59,395 bases of DNA, taken from Pantanalinema sp. (lineage in GTDB: Bacteria > Cyanobacteriota > Sericytochromatia > S15B-MN24 > UBA4093). Positions 1,745-35,016 of this stretch are shown in pieces (position 1 is the stretch's first letter; each line of letters opens with the position of its first letter). The notes beneath the pieces were generated by a model. That model saw only the letters and a list, made by a program, of their open reading frames with translations. It ran no database searches and had not been told where the DNA came from. A program made the position numbers and the translations under genes. The DNA is taken from contig DATNQI010000054.1 in NCBI GenBank assembly GCA_036704125.1, forward strand, positions 1 to 59,395, written 5' to 3'.

Positions 1745-2682
1745 GCTCTCCGTACAGACGCCTCTCCCACGAGGGGCGCTTTACTTCGTAGACGTTCGCT
1801 GAGGAGCAAACGGGGCGGAGAATGTTGAAGACGAGAGGGGCTGGATGGTGCCGGATGCAGGGAGGCGGACTGTTGGGCACCCCACGTGGGCCTTGTTGAC
1901 CGCTGCGTATGTCCAGGCGTTACCCAGAGAGGTAGGCAAGGGGCTGGCCACCGATGCCGACCGTACCCACGATATGAGGACGTCATCAAGCGACTAGGCA
2001 CCAGGGACCAATAGAATCAATCAACCAGGCTACTGACGCGCCTGTACTGCTCCTACGGCTCTTGTCATCGGCCTGGCTGCCCCGGGGCGTTGCTCCAGAC
2101 GGACTTGCCCTGCGTCCAGGCCATCCTCCGGCTCGAAATGACGACCAAGTGAAGCGGAGGGTGCTGTGGAACCTGCTGCCCGTTTACACCTACCTGATGA
2201 GCGTCATAGAGGCCGAACGCATGGGGCAGGTCGTAGGGTGGTGCAGGAGGCTGAACCGAGCCTCTGTCCTTAGCATGGCAGATCATGATCTGGCTCCTGG
2301 ACGGGGGGCCTCTGATGCCTCGGGAGGTGTTGCCAAATCAGAACAATAGTTCGACATACTGCTGGCGTTCAGGCTTAAACGAGGGTTGGGAGGGAGTTCG
2401 AGCGAAACCATGCGCGAGTATGCGGAAGACTTGGGGGAGATCTGCCTTCATGCAACCCGTGATTCTGACTGAGCCATCTGAAGCTCGGCCTCAGCCTCAA
2501 ATGCTCTGCCGCATTTCCGTGTTGTACAGCGCCTCGTTAGTTGGCTCACAGGATGAACTCAACCGCTACCGGTCATTCAGCAAGCAGAGCCTTCGACACC
2601 ACCTCCATGAGATTCTCAAATAGGCTTGCATGAACCTGAGCAACCGTGTACACTTGGCTGCTGACTTGAATGGCGTTTTTTC
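1745..2682. other. Gene-poor stretch of the mobile element
   Basis: About 0.9 kb without a reading frame I can support. Short frames exist on both strands, but none has a convincing ribosome site, domain or codon pattern. No repeat, tRNA or hairpin is obvious here. It may be decayed cargo of the element or regulatory/non-coding sequence. Confidence 0.4.
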
Positions 2683-2712
2683 ACGGGGCGGAGCAATCCG
2701 CCCCGTTTTTGC
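2683..2712 (+). terminator. Rho-independent terminator-like hairpin
   Basis: A perfect 10-bp stem (ACGGGGCGGA / TCCGCCCCGT) with a GCAA tetraloop is followed by a run of five T on the plus strand. It would stop plus-strand transcription entering from the left and so isolates the gene starting at 2769. No clear plus-strand gene ends just before it. Confidence 0.7.
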
Positions 2713-2768
2713 TGTCTGGAGCGTCTACGTGATGAGGCCCCTCATTCACCTGAAAAAGGAGGATCATC

Positions 2769-3497
2769 ATGATGAAGCCCAATGGTCACAAGTCCCTGGC
2801 TGTTCCCAGGCCCATGGCTGTTCCCACGCCGCCCGTTATCGGCCTGCGCCATCCCACGCAGCGTTATGAACAGAGCGTCCCTGAAAAGCTTCGCCCCTTT
2901 GCCTACTTCCAAGTGGTCATTCCGGAGCAGGTCTATGGCTGGATGGGGCGGCATCCGGACCCGCGAACGGCTTACGCTTCAGAGGCGATGCTCGCCTTCG
3001 TCGAGGCGATCGTCCTCCGCACTTTGCCCATGCGCGGCAACGTGCTGGTGGTCGTTGAAAACGTTGCCACTGCTTGGAAGTTGGACGGGCTGCTCCGGCT
3101 GCATGGGGCCGATAGTGCCGTTTCTCTCCATAGCGTCCTGCATACGGGTCTCAACCCCAATCCGAAACTTGACCGTGAGTCCTGGTTGGCCGAGGGGGAG
3201 AAAGTTGTTGTCGTTCCTCTGCGGAGTCGTGATGATGACATGCTGGAGCACCCTGGAATCGGAACCATCCTGTTCGCCATGGGCGGGCAGGCCCCTGAGA
3301 CCTTCCAACAGCGGATCACCCAGGCCAGGAACCCCGAGAAGCATGACGGCGTCATCGTGGTGCTGGACCTCCATGACGAGGGCATCAGTCGGACGCCCTG
3401 GCTTCGCCGACTGGATGATGCCTCGGCCATGATGCCCTTCAAGGCTAACGTCTGTTCCTTTGACAGCCTGCAAACGCTGCTTTCTCAGTGCAACTAG
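2769..3497 (+). CDS. Stand-alone helicase C-terminal (RecA2)-like protein, hypothetical
   Basis: A 242-residue protein with a strong ribosome site (AAGGAGGA) before tandem ATGs at 2769 and 2772. Residues ~90-225 are laid out like the second RecA domain of a superfamily 2 helicase: a motif IV-like strand (GNVLVVVEN), a motif V-like strand and loop (EKVVVVPLRSRDDDMLEHP then GIGTILF), and a motif VI-like segment (FQQRITQARNPEKHDGVIVV). No first RecA domain with Walker A or DEAD box precedes it, so it cannot be a complete helicase. It could be an adaptor or regulatory protein, or a broken helicase remnant. It is monocistronic, flanked by hairpins at 2683 and 3581, within the mobile element. The domain reading is inference by pattern only. 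Confidence 0.5.
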   Translation: MMKPNGHKSLAVPRPMAVPTPPVIGLRHPTQRYEQSVPEKLRPFAYFQVVIPEQVYGWMGRHPDPRTAYASEAMLAFVEAIVLRTLPMRGNVLVVVENVATAWKLDGLLRLHGADSAVSLHSVLHTGLNPNPKLDRESWLAEGEKVVVVPLRSRDDDMLEHPGIGTILFAMGGQAPETFQQRITQARNPEKHDGVIVVLDLHDEGISRTPWLRRLDDASAMMPFKANVCSFDSLQTLLSQCN

Positions 3498-3580
3498 GCG
3501 CCAGCCATCGCCATCAGGTGACGATGTGCGTGTCGTTTGAGTCGGCGATGATCGGTTAATCGGCCTGCAACTCACACGAC

Positions 3581-3614
3581 GGAGAGGTCCTCAGCGATTT
3601 TCGAGGACCTCTCC
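3581..3614. terminator. Perfect 12-bp inverted repeat downstream of 3497
   Basis: GGAGAGGTCCTC and GAGGACCTCTCC flank a 10-nt loop. There is no T run on either side, so it is either a non-canonical terminator for the gene ending at 3497 or a protein-binding or recombination site. The rest of 3498-3744 holds no supported gene. Confidence 0.5.
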
Positions 3615-3744
3615 GCCAATAGCATGCCAGGATGGCGATGAAGTGGTCTGGCCTGCCTCGATCACACGGATGTGCCTGCACCAGGTCGAATGTGACGCCG
3701 ACGCCCTGGAGAGCGTCCTCATTACCAGATTCGCCCGCTGCCAA

Positions 3745-4287
3745 TTATGGTCCACTCATTGGGCCGATCGTACTGAACCCGTCCCAGCCGAACGCGTGTA
3801 CGGGAATCCCAGCCACCTTAACATCGTGGGCTACCTTTGCGATCTTCTGCTCCTGGAAGGCCAGTATGGGAAAGTGGACCACCAGGTCCGGAGGTGGATC
3901 GAGCGGAGCCTCTACGATCTCGACGTCGAGCTTTCCATAGGCCCTGTCCAGCGTTTCCAAGAGCGGCACGACAGACCAGGAGGCCAGAAGCCTTAGCAGG
4001 AGGGTTCCCCCGGTCGGACAAATCTGGAGTGTGATGTTGACATCGGGGTTTTGGCGAATCGCAAAGGCCACGAGCGTCGCCAGCACACGGGTAGGCGTCT
4101 CCAGCTCAGGAAACCGTTTGTCGCCGAGTATGAGTATGGTGAAGTTGGCGCCCACTCGACCCCTTGCCACCTCCTGCCACCAGTCATTCCAGGGGGATTC
4201 TGGGTCGGGGGCACCACATGGATCCTCGTAGGCTGAGGGATCGAGGTATGCGCCGTACTCGGCTTTCTCGAACTCGGGGTAGGTCAT
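3745..4287 (-). CDS. Hypothetical protein (180 aa) of the mobile element
   Basis: I do not recognise this family. I chose ATG 4287 because GGAG lies six bases upstream; an in-frame TTG at 4395 would add 36 low-complexity Ser/Asn/Gly residues. The N-terminus is acidic and aromatic (YPEFEKAEYGAYLDP, WNDWWQEVARG), followed by alternating strand-helix segments (NFTILILGDKRF, ITLQICPTGGTLLLRLLA, LVVHFPILAFQEQKIAKVA) that suggest a Rossmann-like alpha/beta fold. There is no signal peptide or membrane segment. It lies just downstream of the gene at 4334-4681 with a 46-bp gap on the same strand, so the two are probably one operon. Confidence 0.5.
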   Translation of the reverse strand: MTYPEFEKAEYGAYLDPSAYEDPCGAPDPESPWNDWWQEVARGRVGANFTILILGDKRFPELETPTRVLATLVAFAIRQNPDVNITLQICPTGGTLLLRLLASWSVVPLLETLDRAYGKLDVEIVEAPLDPPPDLVVHFPILAFQEQKIAKVAHDVKVAGIPVHAFGWDGFSTIGPMSGP

Positions 4288-4333
4288 TGTTATCTCCGCA
4301 TCAGGCTCGCCGCCGGCAGCCTGATGATTGCCG

Positions 4334-4681
4334 TTACCGCTGGTCGATGACTGGGAGTTGCTCCCACTTGAGACCGGGCACGGGGTATCGGGCAAAGCTT
4401 TTTAGACCTTTTTGGTCCCCCGAATATCGGTAGATCCAGTTGCCCTCCGGTAGCAGGAGGACCTCGCCCAAGTCGAAGTCAGCCGTCAACCAACGGTGAC
4501 GGTCTTGGCCCTCAGTCATATAGCCCGCTAGCCCATGCGTCCATGCCGACAGACCCGACGGGGGCTCCCGATCGCCTTGGTAGATGGAGTTGCGATCGCT
4601 GGCAGCCATCCGGTTCTCCAAGGCCCAGGCATGGATGATCGAACGAGCCTGGTCTGGGGTGAGTTGCAGGTTTAAGCGCAT
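4334..4681 (-). CDS. Hypothetical protein (115 aa)
   Basis: Start ATG 4681 is preceded by GGAGG with an 8-base spacer; an in-frame ATG at 4714 lacks such a site. The protein has an N-terminal helix (LTPDQARSIIHAWALENRM) and a C-terminal half with aromatic strands (GNWIYRYSGDQKGLKSFARY). No known motif, signal peptide or membrane segment is visible. It probably forms a two-gene unit with the downstream gene at 3745-4287. Its function cannot be inferred beyond being cargo of the element. Confidence 0.5.
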   Translation of the reverse strand: MRLNLQLTPDQARSIIHAWALENRMAASDRNSIYQGDREPPSGLSAWTHGLAGYMTEGQDRHRWLTADFDLGEVLLLPEGNWIYRYSGDQKGLKSFARYPVPGLKWEQLPVIDQR

Positions 4682-4800
4682 ATTGATACCTCCAGTCAGG
4701 GAATCGGAACACAATGGGTCAACGAGAGGTAACTATTGCGTCGGTCAAAGCAAGAGGGTAAGTTGCCCGGCCCCCTTGCTACTTCTTCGATGATACCCGT

Positions 4801-8178: not shown

Positions 8179-8868
8179 TTGGCAGACGGTCGGTATGTTG
8201 CCTATTACCGGGTTAGCACCCAAGGCCAGGGCTCCTCAGGTCTTGGCCTAGAGGCCCAGCAGGAGGCTGTCGTCAGCTACCTGAACGGGGGTGGCTGGGA
8301 GCTGGTCGGTAAGTACACTGACGTCGAGAGCGGCACCCGCAAGGGGAACGACCGCCCCGAGTTGAAGAAGGCCCTCGCCCACGCCAAGCGCGAGAAGGCC
8401 ACGCTGATCATCGCCAAGCTCGATCGGCTGGCGCGCAACGTTCACTTCATCACCGGACTCATGGAGAGCGGGGTCGACTTCGTCGCTGTGGACAACCCCA
8501 CCGCCACCCGCTTCACGGTCCAGATCCTCGCCGTACTGGCCGAGGAGGAAGCGCGGCTGATCTCCGTGCGGACCAAGGCCGCCCTCCAAGCCGCTCGAAA
8601 GCGTGGCGCAAAGCTGGGCAAGCCAGAGAACTTGACTGACAGTGCCCGACGTAAGGGAGCCGAGGCGGCAGGCCAGAAGGCTTCCCGCACTGCTCGCGAC
8701 GAGTACACTGCCATCGTCCCTACGATCATGCGGTTGCGCGCTCAGGGCCTGAGCCTGCGTGCGATCGCCCAACATCTCAACCAGGCCGGTGAGGTCACCC
8801 GCCACAACAAGCCCTTCGAGGCCATGACCGTCCAGCGGATCATCAAGCGCCTCGGGCCTAACGCATAG
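8179..8868 (+). CDS. Serine recombinase (resolvase/invertase family)
   Basis: A 229-residue protein from a TTG at 8179. The N-terminal catalytic domain shows YYRVSTQGQ with the nucleophile Ser13, then LGLEAQQEAV, and the active-site helix region IIAKLDRLARN. The C-terminal ~60 residues (IMRLRAQGLSLRAIAQHLN, MTVQRIIKRLG) form the DNA-binding helix-turn-helix. The length matches small serine resolvases/invertases rather than large integrases. It would catalyse site-specific strand exchange through a Ser-DNA link, resolving cointegrates or inverting a segment of the element. It is a second recombinase in addition to the tyrosine integrase 0.4 kb downstream. A palindrome at 8043 is a candidate target or operator. 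Confidence 0.9.
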   Translation: MADGRYVAYYRVSTQGQGSSGLGLEAQQEAVVSYLNGGGWELVGKYTDVESGTRKGNDRPELKKALAHAKREKATLIIAKLDRLARNVHFITGLMESGVDFVAVDNPTATRFTVQILAVLAEEEARLISVRTKAALQAARKRGAKLGKPENLTDSARRKGAEAAGQKASRTARDEYTAIVPTIMRLRAQGLSLRAIAQHLNQAGEVTRHNKPFEAMTVQRIIKRLGPNA

Positions 8869-8983
8869 AGCACTCTGCTAACCAGTACCTGGAGCGGTTA
8901 ACCAAGATTTAACTGCATAGGCCGCCCCGTTCTCGCCCCGACGATCGTTTACGGGGTGAAGAGGATGAATGTGGGAGGTGCCT

Positions 8984-9181
8984 ATGAAAGTGATGAAATT
9001 CGTGGACCAGGAGTTCCGCACGGTCCAGCAGGTGGCAGAGCAGCTCGCCGTCTCCCAGAACCTGATCTACAAGCTGATTGCCGAAGGGAAGATCGGTCAC
9101 TCCCGGATCGGCACTTCGATTCGTATTCCGAGTGAGGCGCTGCGCGAGTATCTCGAACAGCAGTACACCGAGGCTGGCTAG
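8984..9181 (+). CDS. Excisionase-like helix-turn-helix protein
   Basis: A 65-residue protein; ATG 8984 has GGGAGGTG immediately upstream, making it preferable to the in-frame ATG at 8969. The sequence FRTVQQVAEQLAVSQNLIYK followed by LIAEGKIGHSRIG and RIPSEALREYL is the HTH_17/MerR-like excisionase-family fold. Proteins of this type bend DNA and bias the integrase toward excision, and often repress their own operon. It is followed by the integrase gene 43 bp downstream in the same direction, the usual xis-int arrangement. Confidence 0.85.
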   Translation: MKVMKFVDQEFRTVQQVAEQLAVSQNLIYKLIAEGKIGHSRIGTSIRIPSEALREYLEQQYTEAG

Positions 9182-9224
9182 GCAACGGCCTTCCCGGCCT
9201 CACTTCCACGGAAAGGAGGTTCCT

Positions 9225-10364
9225 ATGGCACGGCGAGGCCGCAACGAAGGCCACATCACGAAGCGGCAAGACGGGCGCTGGATGGGGGTCTTGCATCTCG
9301 GGTACGAGGGCGGGAAACGTCGTCGTAAGCACTTTTATGGCAAGACTCGTGCCGAGGTGAGTGCCCAGTTGGTCAAGGCTCAGCGGGACCTTCAACTCGG
9401 TATTAAGCCCGCCGATGGCACCACGACGGTCGAGCAGTTCCTCGATCGATGGCTCGCTACGACAGCCAAGCCAAAGGTAAGGCCCTCGACATTTGCTCGT
9501 TATGCCGCACTGGTCCGTTTGCACATCGCTCCGCAGCTTGGGAACGTCAAGCTGGCCAAGCTCACCGCCGAGCAAGTTCAGCGATTCATGAACGACAAGC
9601 AAGCTGCTGGCTTGTCTCCTCGGACCGTCCAGTACATCCGAGCGGTGCTCTTCCAGGCCCTGAAGCAGGCCGTCGATTGGGACGTGATCGGGCGCAACGT
9701 CGTTGAGCGTACCAAGTCCCCGAAGCTTCCCCACAAGGAAGTGACCCCCCTGAGCAAGAGCCAGGTCCTCACATTCCTGGAGAGCATCAAGGGCGATCGC
9801 CTTGAGGTCCTGTACTCCCTAGTCGTTGCGACCGGGCTCCGCCAAGGCGAGGCGCTCGGATTGACTTGGGATGACGTCGATTTCCAAGCGGGTGTTATCC
9901 GGATTCGGAACAACCTCCAGTGGATCGAAGGCCAGTTTAAGCTGGTGGACGTGAAGACCGCCCGATCCCGGCGAACGCTGGCGGTCCCGGATGTCATCAT
10001 GAAGAGCCTCAAACAGCACCGAGCCAAGCAAGCAGCCGAGAAGCTACGGTCAGGTGCTGCGTGGAAAGACACGCTGAAGCTGGTCTTCACCACACCAACC
10101 GGGGCGCCCATCCACGCCAGTAACATCACTCACCACTTCCAGCGATTGCTGGCCGACCTTGGCCTCCCTCGTCAGCGGTTCCATGATCTGCGCCACTGCT
10201 GTGCGAGCCTCCTGATAGCCGAGAATACCAACATGAAATTGGTGTCAGACCATCTCGGCCACAGCCAGATCGGGATCACCATGGATCTGTATGCGCACGT
10301 CCTTCCTGACACGAAGCGTGAGGTGGCCAAGACCATGAACTCGATCTTGACCGGGAACCACTGA
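9225..10364 (+). CDS. Tyrosine-type site-specific integrase
   Basis: A 379-residue protein from ATG 9225, which has AAAGGAGG eight bases upstream. The N-terminal arm-binding domain (GRWMGVLHLGYEGGKRRRKH) is of the AP2-like type, followed by a core-binding SAM-like domain (~60-150) and a C-terminal catalytic domain with Arg about 205 (ATGLRQGEALGLTWDD), HDLRH about 320, HLGHS about 343 and the nucleophile Tyr about 356 (MDLYAHV). All catalytic residues are present, so it is probably active. It ends about 100 bp from the 3' end of the tRNA gene at 10466-10538, marking the right boundary of the element. Confidence 0.93.
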   Translation: MARRGRNEGHITKRQDGRWMGVLHLGYEGGKRRRKHFYGKTRAEVSAQLVKAQRDLQLGIKPADGTTTVEQFLDRWLATTAKPKVRPSTFARYAALVRLHIAPQLGNVKLAKLTAEQVQRFMNDKQAAGLSPRTVQYIRAVLFQALKQAVDWDVIGRNVVERTKSPKLPHKEVTPLSKSQVLTFLESIKGDRLEVLYSLVVATGLRQGEALGLTWDDVDFQAGVIRIRNNLQWIEGQFKLVDVKTARSRRTLAVPDVIMKSLKQHRAKQAAEKLRSGAAWKDTLKLVFTTPTGAPIHASNITHHFQRLLADLGLPRQRFHDLRHCCASLLIAENTNMKLVSDHLGHSQIGITMDLYAHVLPDTKREVAKTMNSILTGNH

Positions 10365-10590: not shown

Positions 10591-11736
10591 CTATTCCTCC
10601 GGCTTTCCCAGCGGGACCTCGAACCAGAAGGTGCTGCCCTGGCCCGGCAGGCTGCGAACCCCGATTCGCCCCCCGTGAGCCTCGACGAAGGCCTTGGCCA
10701 GGCTGAGCCCGAGCCCCGTCCCGCCGGCCCGGCGCGTCGCGCTCATGTCGAGCTGCCTGAAGGGGTGAAAGAGCTTGCGGATGTCCCCGGGCGAAATCCC
10801 GATCCCCGTGTCCTGCACCTCGGTCACCAGCTCCCCTCGCCGCTCGAAGGCACGCACGCGAATAGCGCCGCTCGCGGGCGTGAACTTGATGGCGTTGTCG
10901 ACCAGGTTGACCAGGACCTCGTGGATGCGTTGCCCGTCCAGGTGAAGCTCGCCCGCGAGATCCACCCGCGCCTCGAGGTGAAGGCCCTTGGCCTCGGCCA
11001 GCGGCCGCAGCTCGGCGAGGACCTGCTCGACCAGCGCCGCGTAGTCCACCCAGGAGGGAGAAAGCTCGAATCGCCCCGCCACGATCTCGGCCATGTCGAT
11101 CAGGTTGTTGGCGATGCCGAGCAGGCGCTGGCCGCCCTCGAGGATCCGCTTCACCTCCTCGTGCTGATCCGGAGTGAGGCTCCCTTCCACCTCCTCGTCC
11201 AGCATGCTCGCGAAGCCCAGGACGAAGTTCAGCGGCGTCTTGAGCTCGTGGCTGATGACCGACAGGAACTCGTCCTTGTAGCGATCGGCTTCCCTGAGCT
11301 CCCGGACGGCGTCCTCCAGGTCGGCCGTCTTGCGCGACAGCTCGCCCAGCAGGCGGCGGCGCGCCGAGATGTCCCGGACGATCGCCATCACCAGAAGCCC
11401 GCGATCCGTCCTGATCGGGCTGAGGCTGGCATCGATCGGAAACTCGCTGCCGTCCTTGCGGCGCCCGTTCGGCTCGAGCCCCGCGCCCATCGGCCGGGCG
11501 GCCGGATGGGAGAAGTAGCCGCGGCGGTACTCGGGGTGGATGCTGCGGAAGCGCTCGGGCACCAGCAGCTCGATGGGCTTTCCCAGCAGCTCCTCGCGAC
11601 CGTAGCCGAAGTAAAGCTCGGTCTGGCGATTCACGAAGACGATGGCCCCCGACTCTTCGATGACGACCACCGCGTCGGGCGCATGCTCCAGCATGGCCTG
11701 CAGGATGCCGGGCTCCAGGCTCGAACCGCCAGCCAT
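10591..11736 (-). CDS. PAS-domain sensor histidine kinase
   Basis: A 381-residue protein with a PAS domain (residues ~12-125; HAPDAVVVIEESGAIVFVNR, GYGREELLGKPIE, DISARRRLLGE), a short coiled coil, the HisKA dimerisation domain with phospho-acceptor His163 (ISHELKTPLN), and the ATP-binding domain with N box (LVNLVDNAIKF), G1 (DTGIGIS) and G2 (GGTGLGLSLAK). No transmembrane segment is present, so it is cytosolic; the PAS pocket may bind haem, flavin or a small molecule. It lies 3 bp after the NirK-like gene and the redox cluster on the same strand, so sensing of oxygen or nitrogen oxides is a reasonable inference. No response regulator is adjacent. Confidence 0.9.
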   Translation of the reverse strand: MAGGSSLEPGILQAMLEHAPDAVVVIEESGAIVFVNRQTELYFGYGREELLGKPIELLVPERFRSIHPEYRRGYFSHPAARPMGAGLEPNGRRKDGSEFPIDASLSPIRTDRGLLVMAIVRDISARRRLLGELSRKTADLEDAVRELREADRYKDEFLSVISHELKTPLNFVLGFASMLDEEVEGSLTPDQHEEVKRILEGGQRLLGIANNLIDMAEIVAGRFELSPSWVDYAALVEQVLAELRPLAEAKGLHLEARVDLAGELHLDGQRIHEVLVNLVDNAIKFTPASGAIRVRAFERRGELVTEVQDTGIGISPGDIRKLFHPFRQLDMSATRRAGGTGLGLSLAKAFVEAHGGRIGVRSLPGQGSTFWFEVPLGKPEE

Positions 11737-11739
11737 GGC

Positions 11740-12666
11740 CTAGCCCCCCACCACCAGCAGGCCGAAGGCACCCTGGTCGCCGTGACCGACGTCGTGGTTC
11801 ACGAACGGGAAGGTGCCCGGCTGCTCGGCCAGGATCTCGAAGACCGCCCCGCCGCCCGGCGGCACGGCGTAGGTCTGGACGCCGTGCAGCGCCCCTTGCG
11901 GCGGAGCCGCGGGGTAGAGCGTGTCGAACTGCTGGCCGATCACGTGAAAGGCGCACTCGCGGCGCGGGCCCGCGTTGACCAGGTAGATCCGGACCAGCTC
12001 CCCGACGCGCGCGCGCAGCGGGGACTCTCGGTACCGGAAAGCCCGGCCGTTGAAGGCCGTGTAATCGGCCTGGCCCATGAGCATCCGCGGGTAATCGGGG
12101 CGCCAGCTGGAGCCTGCCTTCCGGATGTAGAATTCACTGTAGACCAGCACGAATTCGCGCGCCGGCGCAAGCGGCTCGCTCGGATCGACGACCAGGGCCC
12201 CGTACATGCCGCTGCCCATGTGCAGCAGCACGGGCGGCGTCCCGCAGTGGTAGAGGAAGGCGCCCGCATAACGCGGCTTGAAGGTGAACTCCAGGCTCTG
12301 GCCCGGGGCGATGGTGCGAAAGGCGGTCTTCCAGTCGATGCGCGCCGCGTGGAAATCGACCGAATGAGGCATGGAGCCGCGGTTGATGAACGTGACGTGC
12401 ACCGTGTCGCCGACCCGCGCGCGCAGCGTCGGAGCAGGCACCGTGCCGTTGAAGGTCCAGGCGCGCATGCGCACGCCTCCCGCGATCGCGACCTCGGCGT
12501 CCCGAGCCACCACGCGAAAGTGGACCGTGCGCCCCGCGGACCGGGGCGGCAGGCGCGGATTCACGACCCCGGCGTCGGGCGTGGCCGAGGGGACGCGCTC
12601 GGCCTCGGCCGGAAGGATCGACGCCCCGATCACGGCCAGGGTCACCGCCGCGATCCTCATGGACAT
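11740..12666 (-). CDS. Two-domain cupredoxin related to copper nitrite reductase (NirK-like)
   Basis: Start chosen at ATG 12666 because it gives a signal peptide (MRIAAVTLAVIGASILPAEA), so the protein is exported; GTG 12723 is the longer alternative. In the 308-residue form the type 1 copper ligands are His101, Cys141, His149 and Met154 (MPHSVDFH, YHC, LLHMGSGM), and the type 2 ligands are His106, His140 and His291 (VNHDVGHG). Asp104 corresponds to the catalytic Asp. The position of the second catalytic residue, His255 in characterised NirK, appears to be Gln246 here (HVIGQQFD versus HLIGGHGD). It is therefore a NirK-family fold that may not reduce nitrite efficiently. It sits with DUF2249, ScdA_N and CcoN-like genes and a PAS kinase. 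Confidence 0.8.
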   Translation of the reverse strand: MSMRIAAVTLAVIGASILPAEAERVPSATPDAGVVNPRLPPRSAGRTVHFRVVARDAEVAIAGGVRMRAWTFNGTVPAPTLRARVGDTVHVTFINRGSMPHSVDFHAARIDWKTAFRTIAPGQSLEFTFKPRYAGAFLYHCGTPPVLLHMGSGMYGALVVDPSEPLAPAREFVLVYSEFYIRKAGSSWRPDYPRMLMGQADYTAFNGRAFRYRESPLRARVGELVRIYLVNAGPRRECAFHVIGQQFDTLYPAAPPQGALHGVQTYAVPPGGGAVFEILAEQPGTFPFVNHDVGHGDQGAFGLLVVGG

Positions 12667-12850
12667 CCCGACCTGCCAAGCAATCTCCGCCCGTCGCGCT
12701 TCGAGGCCATGAGGCGCCACCACCCTTCACTGTGAAGAGATGTTACGACGCAGCAAATCTATCAGGCCCGAGCGGCGAGGTCAAGCCTTCCCGCACGCCG
12801 GAAGGCCAGCGGGGAATAATCCCCGCTGGCCTTCCGCTGACTTGCTAGAG

Positions 12851-13087
12851 CTAGTTCTTACCGATCGAGATCCGCCACTCGACGGGGCCTTCCTCGAGCG
12901 CCGTCCACGTGAACTGCCCGGGGCGCTCCGCCTGGAACTGGTACAGGAGCGGAGTGGGGCTGTGGTCGTTGACGAGGATCAAGCTCTCGCCCGAGGCGAG
13001 GCCATCGAACGTCCCGAAGATGGCGGGGTGCTTCTCGCGAGGGGGGATGGGGCGGACGTCCACGACGACGGGGTTATCTTGACTCAT
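12851..13087 (-). CDS. DUF2249 domain protein
   Basis: A 78-residue cytosolic protein matching the DUF2249 pattern: VDVRPIPPREKHPAIFGTFD, ESLILVNDHSPTPLLYQF and a C-terminal WRISIGK. Such domains occur alone or fused to hemerythrin or ScdA/RIC-like proteins and are tied to nitrogen-oxide or iron-sulfur stress. The Asp/His in NDHSP is the conserved core. It lies 42 bp downstream of the ScdA_N gene on the same strand and is probably cotranscribed with it and the CcoN-like gene. The biochemical role is not established. Confidence 0.85.
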   Translation of the reverse strand: MSQDNPVVVDVRPIPPREKHPAIFGTFDGLASGESLILVNDHSPTPLLYQFQAERPGQFTWTALEEGPVEWRISIGKN

Positions 13088-13129
13088 GATCGTTCCTCTC
13101 TTGACGCTGCGCGCTCGGGCGCAAGCCCT

Positions 13130-13315
13130 TTAAAGCTTCTCGAGCTCCGCGACGACGGCCTCCAGGGAAGCGTTCGCTTCCTTGGCGTTCTGCGCGAGGG
13201 TGCGGTGCTCCCCGCAGCAGGTGTCCAGCAGGTGGGCGTTCAGGACGCCGATCGCCCTGGGGTTCTGCTTCATGATCTCGTGGAGCGTGAGCTCGGCGAG
13301 TGGCTTGGTGGTCAT
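13130..13315 (-). CDS. ScdA_N (DUF542) domain protein
   Basis: A 61-residue protein from ATG 13315 (GAGGATCG upstream). The sequence LTLHEIMKQNPRAIGVLNAH then LLDTCCGEHRTL is the signature of the N-terminal domain of RIC/ScdA proteins, which repair iron-sulfur centres damaged by nitric oxide or peroxide. Here the domain stands alone without the hemerythrin part. The double Cys of DTCCG is conserved. It is flanked by DUF2249 downstream and a CcoN-like membrane protein upstream, an arrangement seen in denitrification-linked clusters. Confidence 0.88.
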   Translation of the reverse strand: MTTKPLAELTLHEIMKQNPRAIGVLNAHLLDTCCGEHRTLAQNAKEANASLEAVVAELEKL

Positions 13316-13335
13316 CGATCCTCCTTGACCCATGG

Positions 13336-13728
13336 TCAATCCATGGTTCTCCACAGGTTGTAAATGAACATCCCCGCCGCGACGACCTGGAGCGATCCGA
13401 ACACGGCGAGCGCATAGCCTCCCGCCCGTCCCGCCGTGTAGACGAGGGGAAAGGACCCCGCCATCCCGACCAGCGCGACGTTCGAGAGGATCAAGTGAGT
13501 GCGGGCGAGGGCCTGGCTGTGCAGGACCTTCCCCTTGAAGCGGGGCACCACGTGGTAGGCCACGCCGAAGATGAACATGGATGCGAACCCCAGCAGGTTG
13601 AGGTGCGCATGGACCGGCCGCAGGTAGCCGACCCACGCGGGCTGAAGGGCCATCGTGAGGCCCAGGATGACCCCGAGACCAAAATAGATGAGCCCGGCTC
13701 GGATGAACCAGATCGTTTCGAAGCTCAT
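13336..13728 (-). CDS. Short haem-copper oxidase subunit I-like membrane protein
   Basis: A 130-residue protein with four hydrophobic helices (starting IWFIRAGLIYFGLGVILGLT). The segment VHAHLNLLGFASMFIFGVAY followed by HVVPRFKG and a later LARTHLILSN resembles helices of cbb3/NO reductase subunit I and NnrS-like proteins, with several His that could bind haem. It is far too short to be a catalytic subunit. It heads a same-strand group with the ScdA_N and DUF2249 genes and may be a haem or NO-binding membrane partner. Confidence 0.75.
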   Translation of the reverse strand: MSFETIWFIRAGLIYFGLGVILGLTMALQPAWVGYLRPVHAHLNLLGFASMFIFGVAYHVVPRFKGKVLHSQALARTHLILSNVALVGMAGSFPLVYTAGRAGGYALAVFGSLQVVAAGMFIYNLWRTMD

Positions 13729-13859: not shown

Positions 13860-13898
13860 GGAAAACAGGCCGTCGCTTGATGCGGCGGCCTGTTTTCC
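13860..13898. terminator. Terminator after first caspase-like gene
   Basis: GGAAAACAGGCCG pairs with CGGCCTGTTTTCC in a long stem with a 13-nt loop, 21 bp beyond the minus-strand stop at 13919. Flanking A and T runs make it usable in both directions. Confidence 0.75.
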
Positions 13899-13918: not shown

Positions 13919-14845
13919 TTAGTCGACGATGGTGAAGATCTTGGCGGCAGCGGCGCCCTGGAGGTTGGGGGTCTGCTCGTAGCGGTTGGCCTTGATGCCG
14001 GCGACGGTGGCCTTGTGCCAGTCGGCGTAGGTCATCGCGTTGCCGCCCTTCTTGTAGGCGTCGACCAGGTAGTAGGTCAGCGCACCGTTGTAGGTGCTGT
14101 TGATGTAGGCGTCGGCCGAGGTCTGGTCGTCCTGGCAGCCCGAGATCAGGGTGTAGGCACCGCTGTTGGCGCGAGCCGCGAAGGTCTGCATCGCCTTGGC
14201 GTTGACGCTGACCGCGTCGAGGTTCTTGGCGTTGTTGGCGAGGGTCAGGCCGCGGACGCGCTTGTTGCGGTCAACGGTGCCCGAGTTGCAGGAGTCCGAG
14301 ACGAACAGCATCGAGGCGCCGGCGGGAAGCTGACCGAGGATGCTCTGGAGCTCGTCGTCGAGGATGGCGTTCTTGAAGCCGCCCGCGCCCTGGGCCAGGT
14401 CGGTGGGGCAGATGATCTCGTCCATGCCGTCCGGCTCGTCGCCGTTCACGTCGCGGACCTGGGCGCCGTGACCCGAGTAGTGGAAGTAGAGGAAGTCGCC
14501 CTTCTTGGTGGCGGCGACCGCGGCCTTGAGGCCGGCGAGGATGTTGGCGCGGGTGGCCTGCTGGTCCAGGACGACGGTCATGTCGCCGGCCTTGAAGCCC
14601 TCGGCGGGAAGCATGTTGGCCTGGACGTTCTTGATGTCGTTGACGCAGCCGCGCAGGTCGGCGCCCTGCAGCTGGTAGTCGTTGATGCCCACCAGGAAGG
14701 CGCGCTTGGTGCCGGTGACGGCGCTCATCCCCTTGAAGGAACCGTTCGTGCCGTCGACCATCGAGGCGCCGGGGAGGCCGCAACCAACGAGGGCGCTCGC
14801 GGCGGCAACCGAGGACAGCATCAAGGCGACGAGGTTCTTCTTCAC
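13919..14845 (-). CDS. Caspase-like (peptidase C14) lipoprotein, copy 1
   Basis: A 308-residue protein from GTG 14845 with GGAG at suitable spacing. Residues 1-22 are a lipoprotein signal peptide (lipobox LVGC, Cys22). The rest is a metacaspase-type p20 domain: strand KRAFLVGINDYQL, GCVNDIKNVQANML, catalytic His126 in HYSGHGAQ, acidic loop NGDEPDGMDE, and catalytic Cys186 in SDSCNSGT. It should act as a cysteine endopeptidase of Arg/Lys specificity, anchored outside the cytoplasm; some family members are calcium-dependent. The paralogue at 15483 is about 90% identical. The promoter at 14903 carries TTAAC repeats. Known bacterial metacaspases take part in stress responses and cell death; the role here is inference. 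Confidence 0.92.
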   Translation of the reverse strand: MKKNLVALMLSSVAAASALVGCGLPGASMVDGTNGSFKGMSAVTGTKRAFLVGINDYQLQGADLRGCVNDIKNVQANMLPAEGFKAGDMTVVLDQQATRANILAGLKAAVAATKKGDFLYFHYSGHGAQVRDVNGDEPDGMDEIICPTDLAQGAGGFKNAILDDELQSILGQLPAGASMLFVSDSCNSGTVDRNKRVRGLTLANNAKNLDAVSVNAKAMQTFAARANSGAYTLISGCQDDQTSADAYINSTYNGALTYYLVDAYKKGGNAMTYADWHKATVAGIKANRYEQTPNLQGAAAAKIFTIVD

Positions 14846-14902
14846 GGGTGGCTCCTTGCATCGGTGGGGCGTCTTCGGCCCAGCAACGTATCGACAAGAT
14901 TC

Positions 14903-14931
14903 AGAATAGATTAATCCGTCTTAACTGTCAA
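14903..14931 (-). promoter_or_regulatory. Sigma70-type promoter of caspase-like copy 1
   Basis: Minus-strand -35 TTGACA (14926-14931) and -10 TATTCT (14903-14908) are separated by exactly 17 bp. The arrangement is conserved in copy 2. Confidence 0.7.
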
Positions 14932-14965
14932 TAACCCCACCTTAACTATTTAACCTATTCTTAAC
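14911..14965. promoter_or_regulatory. TTAAC direct-repeat array (Pho-box-like) at copy 1
   Basis: TTAAT/TTAAC/ATAAC-type units begin at 14911, 14921, 14931, 14942, 14950 and 14961, i.e. mostly at 10-11 bp spacing, overlapping and lying upstream of the -35. This resembles the direct-repeat sites of PhoB/PhoP-type OmpR-family activators. Confidence 0.5.
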
Positions 14966-15038
14966 TATGCACTCAAAACAAGACAGCAGGCGGCTTCCAG
15001 GCAATAAAAGGCGTCCACCAGCCCCCCAAGGCAGAAAG

Positions 15039-15063
15039 AATCCCCGAAAAATTTTCGGGGATT
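15039..15063 (-). terminator. Perfect 12-bp hairpin, terminator-like on the minus strand
   Basis: AATCCCCGAAAA and TTTTCGGGGATT pair around one base; read on the minus strand it is followed by a T-rich tract. It lies 66 bp past the stop of the small gene at 15129 and supports that gene being transcribed. Confidence 0.6.
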
Positions 15064-15128
15064 CTCTCAAAAAACAGGGAAGGTTAAACCCGCAAGCATT
15101 CATGGAACCGGAATTTGCCGAGCCTTCA

Positions 15129-15362
15129 TCAGGGCGCCGCGGAAGCCATGGGCAGGGCGAGCGCCCGGCGCAGGCGCAGAGTGGCGATCTGGTGGTGCGC
15201 GATGCGCAGTGCCTCGTCGGCGGCGGCCAGGGCTTGGCGTGCCGATTGGAGCCTGGTGCTCGCCTGGTCTCGCGTGAGGCGCTGCTGACGCTGCTCATCA
15301 CGCCGCTGGTGTTCGTAGCGCGGGACAAGCTTCAACCGCGAAAGACGGCCCAGGCTCACCAC
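15129..15362 (-). CDS. Small putative coiled-coil protein between the caspase-like genes
   Basis: A 77-residue frame from GTG 15362 (the frame stays open to 15422, but that start lies in the upstream terminator). It is rich in Arg, Gln and Ala with heptad-like spacing (STRLQSARQALAAADEALRI) and no signal peptide. No family is recognised. Support comes from the position between two minus-strand genes and from the hairpin terminator at 15039. The ribosome site is poor, so it may be spurious; it was included because no other explanation for this spacer is visible. Confidence 0.35.
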   Translation of the reverse strand: MVSLGRLSRLKLVPRYEHQRRDEQRQQRLTRDQASTRLQSARQALAAADEALRIAHHQIATLRLRRALALPMASAAP

Positions 15363-15419
15363 GCGGAGATGGAGCCTTCCGTGTAGAAAAGCGAATGGGT
15401 CCTGAGTCCCCTTCCGGCG

Positions 15420-15464
15420 CAAAAAAGCAATCGGGCGAGTGCTTCTGCACTCACCCGATTGCTT
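15420..15464 (-). terminator. Strong terminator after caspase-like copy 2
   Basis: An approximately 18-bp stem (AAGCAATCGGG.. with ..CCCGATTGCTT) with a short loop is followed by six T on the minus strand. It lies 19 bp downstream of the stop at 15483. Confidence 0.85.
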
Positions 15465-15482
15465 GGAACTTAAGCGGCCCGA

Positions 15483-16409
15483 CTAGTCGACGATCGAGAA
15501 GATCGTGGCGTTGGCAGCACCCTGCAGGTTGGGGGTCTGCGAGTAGCGGTTGGCCTTGATGCCGGCGACGGTGGCCTTGTGCCAGTCGGCATAGGTCATC
15601 GCGTTGCCGCCCTTCTTGTAGGCGTCGACGAGGTAGTAGGTCAGCGCGCCGTTGTAGGTGCTGTTGATGTAGGCGTCGGCCGAGGTCTGGTCGTCCTGGC
15701 AGCCCGAGATCAGGGTGTAGGCGCCGCTGTTGGCGCGCTGGGCGAACTTCTTCATCGCGGTCGTGTTGACGTTGACGGTGTCGAGGTTGCGGAGGTTCGA
15801 GCCGAGGTCGAGGCCGCGGACGCGCTTGTTGCGATCGACGGTGCCCGAGTTGCAGGAATCCGAGACGAACAGCATCGAGGCGCCGGCGGGAAGCTGACCG
15901 AGGATGCTCTGGATCTCGTCATCCAGGATGGCGTTCTTGAAGGTGCCGTTGCCGCGGGCGAGGTCGGTGGGGCAGATGATCTCGTCCTTGCCGTCCGGCT
16001 CGTCGCCGTTGGTGTCGGGCACCTGGGCGCCGTGACCCGAGTAGTGGAAGTAGAGGAAGTCGCCCTTCTTGGTGGCGGCGACCGCGGCCTTGAGGCCGGC
16101 GAGGATGTTCTCGCGGGTGGCCTGCTGGTCGAGGACGACGGTCATGTCGCCGGCCTTGAAGCCCTCGGCGGGAAGCATGTTGGCCTGGACGTTCTTGATG
16201 TCGTTGACGCAGCCGCGCAGGTCGGCGCCCTCCAGCTGGTAGTCGTTGATGCCCACCAGGAAGGCGCGCTTGGTGCCGGTGACGGCGCTCATCCCCTTGA
16301 AGGAACCGTTCGTGCCGTCGACCATCGAGGCGCTGGGGAGGCCGCAACCAACGAGGGCGCTCGCGGCGGCAACCGAGGACAACATCAAGGCGACGAGGTT
16401 CTTCTTCAC
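15483..16409 (-). CDS. Caspase-like (peptidase C14) lipoprotein, copy 2
   Basis: A 308-residue protein from GTG 16409 with GGAG upstream, nearly identical to the gene at 13919 including signal peptide, lipobox LVGC, HYSGHGAQ and SDSCNSGT catalytic motifs. Differences cluster around residues 130-160 (PDTNGDEPDGKDE, RGNGTF) and 200-225 (DLGSNLRNLDTVNV), i.e. the loops flanking the active site, suggesting divergence of regulation or specificity rather than loss. The two genes plus promoters form a tandem duplication. Being anchored as a lipoprotein distinguishes it from cytosolic metacaspases. Confidence 0.92.
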   Translation of the reverse strand: MKKNLVALMLSSVAAASALVGCGLPSASMVDGTNGSFKGMSAVTGTKRAFLVGINDYQLEGADLRGCVNDIKNVQANMLPAEGFKAGDMTVVLDQQATRENILAGLKAAVAATKKGDFLYFHYSGHGAQVPDTNGDEPDGKDEIICPTDLARGNGTFKNAILDDEIQSILGQLPAGASMLFVSDSCNSGTVDRNKRVRGLDLGSNLRNLDTVNVNTTAMKKFAQRANSGAYTLISGCQDDQTSADAYINSTYNGALTYYLVDAYKKGGNAMTYADWHKATVAGIKANRYSQTPNLQGAANATIFSIVD

Positions 16410-16467
16410 GGGTGACTCCTTCGCTTCGGTGGGGCGTCTTTGGCCCAGCAACGTATCGACAAGATTC

Positions 16468-16530
16468 AGAATAGATTAATCCGTCTTAACTGTCAATAAC
16501 CACACCTTAACTATTTAACCTTATCTTAAT
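16468..16530 (-). promoter_or_regulatory. Duplicated promoter and TTAAC array of caspase-like copy 2
   Basis: The -10 (16468-16473) and -35 TTGACA (16491-16496) have the same 17-bp spacer as copy 1. TTAAC-type repeats begin at 16486, 16496, 16507, 16515 and 16526, preserving the spacing of 10, 11, 8 and 11 bp although flanking bases have drifted. Confidence 0.6.
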
Positions 16531-33483: not shown

Positions 33484-34947
33484 CTAGTTGCTCCAGGCGG
33501 TGCCCCAGGGGCCCCAGGCACCGTTCGCGCCCTTGGCGTGGACGTAGACGACCTGGCGCGACGCCGAGCGGACGGCAGCCACGGCCTTGCGGTCCGCGAC
33601 GCGCATGGCGGTCCCGGTGCCGGCGGCGCCGGGGCGGCCGACGAAGTACTCGGCCTGGGTGACGGCGTCCTCGGCCTCGAGGCTGATCGTGCCGGTGGTG
33701 CCGGCGGCCTCGACCTTGGGCCCGAAGATCGCGTCGGGGTTGTCGGCGATCTTGAGGGCGAAGAGCATCATGGGGCGGTTCTCGTCCCAGAACCTGGAGA
33801 CCCGCGAGAAGGGGGGATCGAAGCCGTCGTTGTAGCTGCCGACCTCGACGGTGTAGGCGAGGGTTCCAAGCTTCTCGAAGGCCCAGTCCACGTCGTCGCC
33901 GCTGTTGACGTACATCTTGCTGCCCTGGTAGGCGTCGTAGCCCGAGAGCTTGCCCATGGCCTGGCCGATGGGCGCGAGGCGCTTGTCCGGGGCCGGCTCG
34001 TCCTTCTTGTCCCAGGACCACATGACCGCGTTGCTGAAGGAGTGGAAGGTCAGGTACACGACCGGCTTGATGCGGAGCATCAGGTCGCGCATGGTCTGGG
34101 TCTCGGGCTCCGAGAAGGCCTTGGCGCCGCGGAAGGTGTCGGACTCGGGGTTGCTCGAGTCGCCCGCGGTGCCCCACGACGCGTCGTAGTTGCGGTTGAG
34201 GTCCACGCCCAGGCGGCTCTTGCCGCCGGTGACGTTGTTGGTGTTCTTGCGCTGGTTGCCGCCCTTGGCCGCGAGCGCGTGACCGTCCGGGTTGACCATG
34301 GGCACCAGCCAGATGTCGCGGTTGTCGACGGCGGCGGTCACCTCGGCGTCCTTGCCGTAGCCGTCGGCCAGGTGATGGACCATGCCGAGCACCATCTCGG
34401 GGGTCACCAGCTCGCGGGCGTGGTGGCAGCCGGCGAAGAGCACGGTGGGCTTGCCGGTGCCGGCCTTCTTGAAGTGGATCGCCCAGATGTCGCGGCTGCC
34501 CTTGCCCTGGTTCTTCTCCCAGCCGTCGCCGATGTCCTGCAGCTCGACCAGCTGGGGGTACTTGGCCGCGACGTCCTTGAGCTCGGCGAGCATGGTGTCG
34601 TAGGTGTGGTAACCCTTGTCGAAGGTGTTGTTGAGGTAGCGATCGCTGCGGCGGGTGACCTTGAAGCCGAGCTGCTTGGCCTTCTCGTACTGCGCCTGGT
34701 TGAGCGCGCCCTTGAGGCGCATGGCCTTGCGATCGACCGACCAGATGTCCGCGCCGGCGTTGACCAGGGCGTTGAGCTGGTCGCGCTGCTTGTAGGTCAT
34801 CTCGACGGCGACGATCTGGTCCTTCGAGCTGAAGGCGATGGGCGCACCCTCGCCGTCGCCGCCCAGGGGGCCTGACATGAGACCGCAGCCCGCGATCGTG
34901 GACGCGGCAAGGAGCGAGAGGGCGGTGCGGAGCGAGCGCTTGAACAA
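33484..34947 (-). CDS. M14-family zinc carboxypeptidase lipoprotein
   Basis: A 487-residue protein with signal peptide and lipobox IAGC. After a propeptide-like region (~35-115) comes the peptidase M14 domain: zinc ligands in CHHARELVTPE and the later TFHSFSNAVMW His, substrate Arg/Asn in GVDLNRNYDASWG, and the catalytic Glu in AYTVEVGSY. A C-terminal beta extension (ISLEAEDAVTQAEYFVG) follows. It should remove C-terminal residues from peptides at the cell surface. Upstream TTAA repeats at exact 11-bp spacing link it to the regulon of the caspase-like lipoproteins. Confidence 0.93.
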   Translation of the reverse strand: MFKRSLRTALSLLAASTIAGCGLMSGPLGGDGEGAPIAFSSKDQIVAVEMTYKQRDQLNALVNAGADIWSVDRKAMRLKGALNQAQYEKAKQLGFKVTRRSDRYLNNTFDKGYHTYDTMLAELKDVAAKYPQLVELQDIGDGWEKNQGKGSRDIWAIHFKKAGTGKPTVLFAGCHHARELVTPEMVLGMVHHLADGYGKDAEVTAAVDNRDIWLVPMVNPDGHALAAKGGNQRKNTNNVTGGKSRLGVDLNRNYDASWGTAGDSSNPESDTFRGAKAFSEPETQTMRDLMLRIKPVVYLTFHSFSNAVMWSWDKKDEPAPDKRLAPIGQAMGKLSGYDAYQGSKMYVNSGDDVDWAFEKLGTLAYTVEVGSYNDGFDPPFSRVSRFWDENRPMMLFALKIADNPDAIFGPKVEAAGTTGTISLEAEDAVTQAEYFVGRPGAAGTGTAMRVADRKAVAAVRSASRQVVYVHAKGANGAWGPWGTAWSN

Positions 34948-34988: not shown

Positions 34989-35016
34989 TTAATACTAGCT
35001 TAAATATAGCTTAACT
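34989..35016. promoter_or_regulatory. TTAA direct repeats, 11-bp spaced, upstream of M14 gene
   Basis: TTAA units begin at 34989, 35000 and 35011, exactly 11 bp apart, 42-69 bp before the gene start. On the minus strand TTGTGA and TAGTAT with an 18-bp spacer form a possible promoter here. Confidence 0.5.

Follow-up and report, generated by a model that had tools for sequence, protein, structure and literature searches.

Prokaryotic metacaspases (MEROPS C14, PF00656; for example Geobacter GSU0716, PDB 3bij) combine the p20 and p10 parts in a single chain, as do the proteins described here, and there has been wide discussion of a role in cell death for caspase homologues of prokaryotes (PMC3501461). 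In a 2012 survey, 46 of the 398 single-domain prokaryotic metacaspases had one N-terminal helix that might be a signal peptide (PMC3501461); the existence of exported members is already known and is not in itself new. A literature search on lipoprotein caspases returned nothing specific. Two described regulatory sites resemble the DNA element reported below, TTAA-N7-TTAA, in which the repeats follow each other with an 11-bp period. The alphaproteobacterial CtrA site (PMC11264516) is identical to it in consensus and 11-bp spacing, and often overlaps the promoter. The cyanobacterial Pho box is made of CTTAACCT repeats bound by SphR (PMC1906773), with 8-bp repeats and a 3-bp linker that give the same TTAA spacing.

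Genomes are labelled G000 (the source genome), G001 (same family) and G002 (same order, different family), and the window denotes the whole stretch of 59,395 nucleotides that was analysed. The main result is an association between TTAA-N7-TTAA and lipoprotein genes, which extends far past the metacaspase pair in which the element was found.

The metacaspase pair and its promoters

Copy A (positions 13919-14845) and copy B (15483-16409), both on the minus strand, each encode 308 residues from a GTG start and match Pfam Peptidase_C14 (1.3e-28 and 8.3e-29, respectively) over residues 47-298, covering the p20 and p10 parts. No further C14 gene occurs in the source genome, a draft of 102 contigs. 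The copies share 92% of residues; in the alignment, 283 of 309 codons (stop included) agree at the amino acid level and 859 of 927 nucleotides are the same, 68 bases being different. His126 in HYSGHG and Cys186 in DSCNSG are present in both copies and invariant across the alignments, and the lipobox reads LVGC-G in each. The initial annotation, which had described two near-identical 308-residue caspase-like lipoproteins with intact His/Cys dyads and lipoboxes, was accurate on these points. The best sequence match to solved metacaspases was 3.5e-28. The AlphaFold model was of moderate quality (mean pLDDT 66.5, pTM 0.73) with a better core, and its top structural matches were metacaspases, including GSU0716. 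Also invariant in the alignments are D184, near Cys186, and D132, D136, D139 and D142, which by analogy would form the acidic P1 pocket (Arg/Lys preference) and the Ca2+ loop.

Three other homologues from the order carry LAGC-G, so that a lipobox is found in all five order members. The genome holds two matches to lipoprotein signal peptidase (LspA, PF01252) as well as Omp85, and lipidation and an outer membrane are therefore expected; given the export and lipidation signals, surface anchoring of the metacaspases is plausible. The closest relatives beyond the order (Chlorobiaceae, Accumulibacter and Flavisolibacter; 35-39% identity) mostly start at p20, and cyanobacterial homologues have a twin-arginine-like leader, which makes the lipobox a trait of this order's branch. 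Among 18 genomes of the class, which to judge from the relatives is probably Sericytochromatia, lipoprotein-type metacaspases were found in G000, G001 and G002 only.

In a consensus scan, the region's sigma-70-type matches were limited to TTGACA-17-TATTCT, which occurs one time for each copy, on the minus strand, at 14903-14931 for copy A (10 of 12 positions matching, 0.4 expected in the region) and at 16468-16496 for copy B. Each promoter lies in a 60-bp block without a single difference between copies A and B, in keeping with the conservation over about 60 bp noted earlier. Terminator-like hairpins follow copy A (13860-13898, minus strand; inverted repeat I25, 17 bp, 94% complementary) and copy B (15425-15464, minus strand; inverted repeat I20, 18 bp, 94% complementary, then T6), and each gene is therefore probably transcribed separately. 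The stems were taken from the inverted-repeat listing and went unscored on the minus strand in the consensus scan, and the tails were assigned by sequence reading. Between the copies, immediately beyond the hairpin trailing copy B, begins an open reading frame at 15129-15422 that had been called a small coiled-coil gene. That label was not sustained: Pfam and NCBIfam searches gave no match, and codon-position GC is equally gene-like on both strands, which precludes assigning a strand by this measure.

The pair is adjoined by nitrite-reductase-like and Fe-S repair genes on one side and by a cbb3 oxidase cluster on the other. Metacaspase neighbours in G001 and G002 are different ones, and function was for this reason not assigned from neighbourhood. 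Positions 10591-13728 of the window encode a PAS histidine kinase, a protein resembling copper nitrite reductase (its match falls below the NCBIfam cut-off), DUF2249, ScdA_N (DUF542) and a short COX1-like protein, and are likely a nitrogen-oxide handling cluster. At 8179-10364 a serine resolvase, an HTH_17 excisionase-like gene and a tyrosine integrase stand consecutively, with a TTAA-N7-TTAA site among them at 8898; this is probably a mobile-element remnant. In G001, sigma-factor-like and anti-sigma-like genes, as judged by sequence reading, lie directly upstream of the metacaspase (L004:1252-2249).

The TTAA-N7-TTAA element and the lipoproteins near it

The TTAA repeat arrays of copy A (14911-14964) and copy B (16476-16529) each contain an exact TTAA-N7-TTAA, at 14950-14964 and 16515-16529, respectively. 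Their reported conservation was borne out, but the arrays are not a by-product of the duplication: they are one instance of a genome-wide element. G000 contains 63 TTAA-N7-TTAA sites versus 9 of the 12-bp control, TTAA-N8-TTAA. The corresponding counts in the order relatives G001-G005 are 71/8, 78/6, 94/4, 19/0 and 181/21, and those in G006-G009 are 24/7, 60/12, 19/4 and 19/10; for G018-G028, which served as phylum controls, the N7/N8 ratio does not exceed 1.4 and is mostly below 1. The excess of the element extends throughout the order and is not seen in Cyanobacteriia. Each of the order's five genes for lipoprotein metacaspases, in three genera, has an exact site within 230 bp upstream, where about 0.004 would be expected per gene. 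Bases flanking the repeats are uninformative as to a direct or an inverted reading. Upstream of EF-hand lipoproteins in two genera (L118:1600-2397 and L193:326-1159), TTAA-N7-TTAA is followed by GAAAGAT, and the motif may, on the evidence of these two genes, have a longer form.

Genes were called with a simple codon-GC script and lipoproteins with a regular expression, neither being a trained predictor. The hypothesis of a lipoprotein link was formed on G000, where about 50 of the 63 sites were inspected together with their flanking genes (loci L110-L124 and L135-L158), and was then checked in G001 and G002 on sites chosen by a three-repeat pattern with one mismatch allowed. The baseline consisted of 20 stretches of 20 kb (400 kb) selected irrespective of sites. 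Site clusters lay within 200 bp of a lipoprotein start in 23/45 cases in G000, 8/19 in G001 and 17/26 in G002. In the baseline, 26 of all 318 genes encoded lipoproteins, as did 6 of the 36 with their own AT-rich intergenic upstream region; lipoproteins are already frequent (6/18) among genes whose own upstream region contains TTAA. For the enrichment in G000, p=1e-7 if the comparison rate is 0.17 and p=0.01 if it is set very strictly at 0.33. Roughly half the sites lack a neighbouring lipoprotein, and most lipoproteins have no exact site.

Site-linked lipoproteins also differ from others in sequence and content. Glycine directly after the lipidated cysteine (Gly+2) was found in 41 of 49 site-linked lipoproteins versus 6 of 28 others (p=9e-8), a contrast that is unaffected by promoter composition because it is made among lipoproteins. 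Peptidases account for 21/49 of the site-linked set versus 3/28 of the control lipoproteins (p=0.004), and for 16/44 versus 3/28 when metacaspases are left out (p=0.027). The G000 peptidases are C14 (two), C11 (two), M14 (three) and S8 (three), and the set further includes phospholipase D, endonuclease I, two dual-specificity-type phosphatases, GH1-like, EF-hand and rhodanese proteins, others, and unknowns. In G001 the site-linked lipoproteins are C14, S8, M14 (two), phospholipase D, EF-hand and others, and in G002 they are C14 (two), C11, S8 (two), C1 (two) and unknowns. The window itself contains a proposed member, an M14 zinc carboxypeptidase lipoprotein with an IAGC-G lipobox (33484-34947, minus strand; Pfam M14 9e-59), upstream of which lie two overlapping TTAA-N7-TTAA sites (34989-35014). 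A second group of proteins encoded near sites has a low-complexity polar N-terminus without a signal peptide and is possibly exported by another route (L138:2875-4500, L139:1806-2396, L146:1-1632 and 1747-4773, L153:1767-2507, L156:1676-3400 and L157:1203-1598).

Proposed role and competing explanations

We consider it somewhat probable that the pair encodes exported, lipid-anchored metacaspases of the Arg/Lys type that belong to a co-regulated set of envelope hydrolases serving extracellular digestion and not programmed cell death. The two proteins, recently duplicated or gene-converted, would be exported, lipidated at Cys22 and retained at the envelope; there they would cleave proteins after Arg or Lys, probably requiring Ca2+. 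Because the element has the consensus and spacing of the CtrA site and resembles the Pho box, a response regulator of the OmpR/PhoB type is the likely binder of the tandem TTAA repeats at these promoters. This candidate regulator would co-regulate the hydrolase-rich lipoproteins, including S8, M14, C11, C14 and C1 peptidases, phospholipase D and endonuclease I; we infer both the co-expression of these genes and the conditions for it. The cell would deploy the lipid-anchored hydrolases on its envelope, with S8, C11 and C14 endoproteases cutting proteins (the metacaspases supplying Arg/Lys cuts), M14 carboxypeptidases trimming peptides, and the nuclease and phospholipase attacking other polymers. 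The most likely role of such a set would be digestion of external protein or cell debris for food. On a broader and more tentative reading, this order of non-photosynthetic cyanobacterial relatives may run an envelope-lipoprotein regulon defined by a CtrA-type box and a Cys-Gly class, the latter maybe a sorting signal, into which metacaspases were recruited as external digestive enzymes.

In some bacteria, secreted clan CD proteases process surface proteins of the producing cell itself, and envelope genes are often under OmpR/PhoB-type regulators. The lipoproteins could on these grounds serve envelope maintenance, processing the cell's own surface proteins during maturation or shedding, with the element acting as a general envelope-stress or growth-phase signal. 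The frequent control of envelope genes by such regulators agrees with this, as does the fact that the site-linked set also includes lipoproteins other than peptidases and proteins whose function is unknown; however, broad digestive families are abundant there (M14 carboxypeptidases, endonuclease I, phospholipase D) and fit nutrient release better, and we regard maintenance as an unlikely main function.

Extracellular digestion is also preferred over a part in programmed cell death or in abortive infection, roles put forward for other caspase homologues of prokaryotes, with the lipid anchor merely placing the enzyme at the membrane. Both copies are recognised by the PADLOC model 'caspase' (1e-20 to 2e-21), a generic match only, and the wide discussion of such a role (PMC3501461) speaks in its favour. 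Against it, the export and lipidation signals in both copies would make the enzymes face away from cytosolic targets, and the promoter element is common to digestive enzymes. Among the pair's neighbours, which are respiration, nitrite-reductase-like and Fe-S repair genes, no defence partner genes were found. Taken together, these points make a cell-death function improbable.

Less credible again is that TTAA-N7-TTAA is a mere compositional or promoter-core feature of AT-rich upstream DNA, shared by many unrelated genes and linked to lipoproteins indirectly. The sites do lie in AT-rich intergenic DNA, about half adjoin no lipoprotein, and lipoproteins already form 6/36 of the baseline genes with such upstream regions. 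Composition would nevertheless not be expected to favour an 11-bp over a 12-bp spacing (63 versus 9) throughout the order and not in the AT-richer Cyanobacteriia, nor to yield the Gly+2 contrast internal to lipoproteins (p=9e-8), and all five metacaspase genes retain the site though the remaining promoter varies between genera.

Duplication history and comparison with known systems

The proposal that a lipoprotein metacaspase was duplicated in tandem along with its promoter holds, with two intact genes and promoters in an identical block. A quick tree of 71 homologues united the five order members in one clade (100), with copies A and B as sisters (97) and a tandem pair in G002 likewise as sisters (100). 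The G002 proteins are identical at 238 of 318 aligned residues, and the pairs in G000 and G002 could reflect either two duplications or one under concerted evolution. The single lipoprotein metacaspase of G001 lies at a contig end, and a second copy there could therefore be missing. That copy B is an assembly duplication, as near-identical copies in a draft of 102 contigs might suggest, is very unlikely indeed, since 68 of 927 bases differ with both frames open, the flanks and hairpins of the copies are unlike, and the G002 pair was separately assembled from another family of the order.

Divergence between the copies (dN 0.059, dS 0.133, ratio 0.44 by NG86) is uneven. Codon differences number 6 in the first 130 codons versus 40 in the last 178 (p=7e-6), and synonymous differences follow the same trend (3 versus 17, p=0.01). 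Residues 201-224, the linker after the catalytic cysteine, hold 12 of the 26 replacements, and none of 20,000 permutations was equally clustered; a further 7 fall in residues 131-166. The concentration of differences near the active site reported for this locus is thus real at the sequence level. Partial gene conversion of the promoter and the 5' half, together with diversification of the linker, would fit this pattern.

With respect to regulation, the Pho box was considered as a control by phosphate starvation. Its motif fits, but the PstS phosphate-binding protein (PF12849) had no match in G000, which is 96% complete, while control genomes did match, and phosphate-uptake genes were not seen among the targets examined, which reduces a Pho reading to resemblance of motif. 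The CtrA site belongs to another phylum, and the TTAA-N7-TTAA targets here are lipoproteins. For a poorly known lineage near cyanobacteria, this single DNA element, apparently marking a class of envelope lipoproteins, offers a handle, and glycine directly after the lipidated cysteine is a possible sorting signal.

With respect to the enzymes, the secreted clostripain family (C11) belongs to clan CD like C14 and forms a separate family (PF03415); both G000 and G002 encode C11 lipoproteins that have the same Gly+2 lipobox and are preceded by the same element. Cyanobacterial orthocaspases share the phylum and the peptidase domain with copies A and B but differ in forming a separate clade in the tree, in their length of about 700 residues and in their twin-arginine-like leader. 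If the proposed role is correct, prokaryotic metacaspases would gain a testable function outside cell death, as envelope enzymes in a co-regulated digestive set. With prokaryotic metacaspases such as GSU0716, copies A and B share the His/Cys dyad, the acidic loop and a QTSAD-type motif, by sequence and fold matches, and unlike them they carry an export signal with a lipobox.
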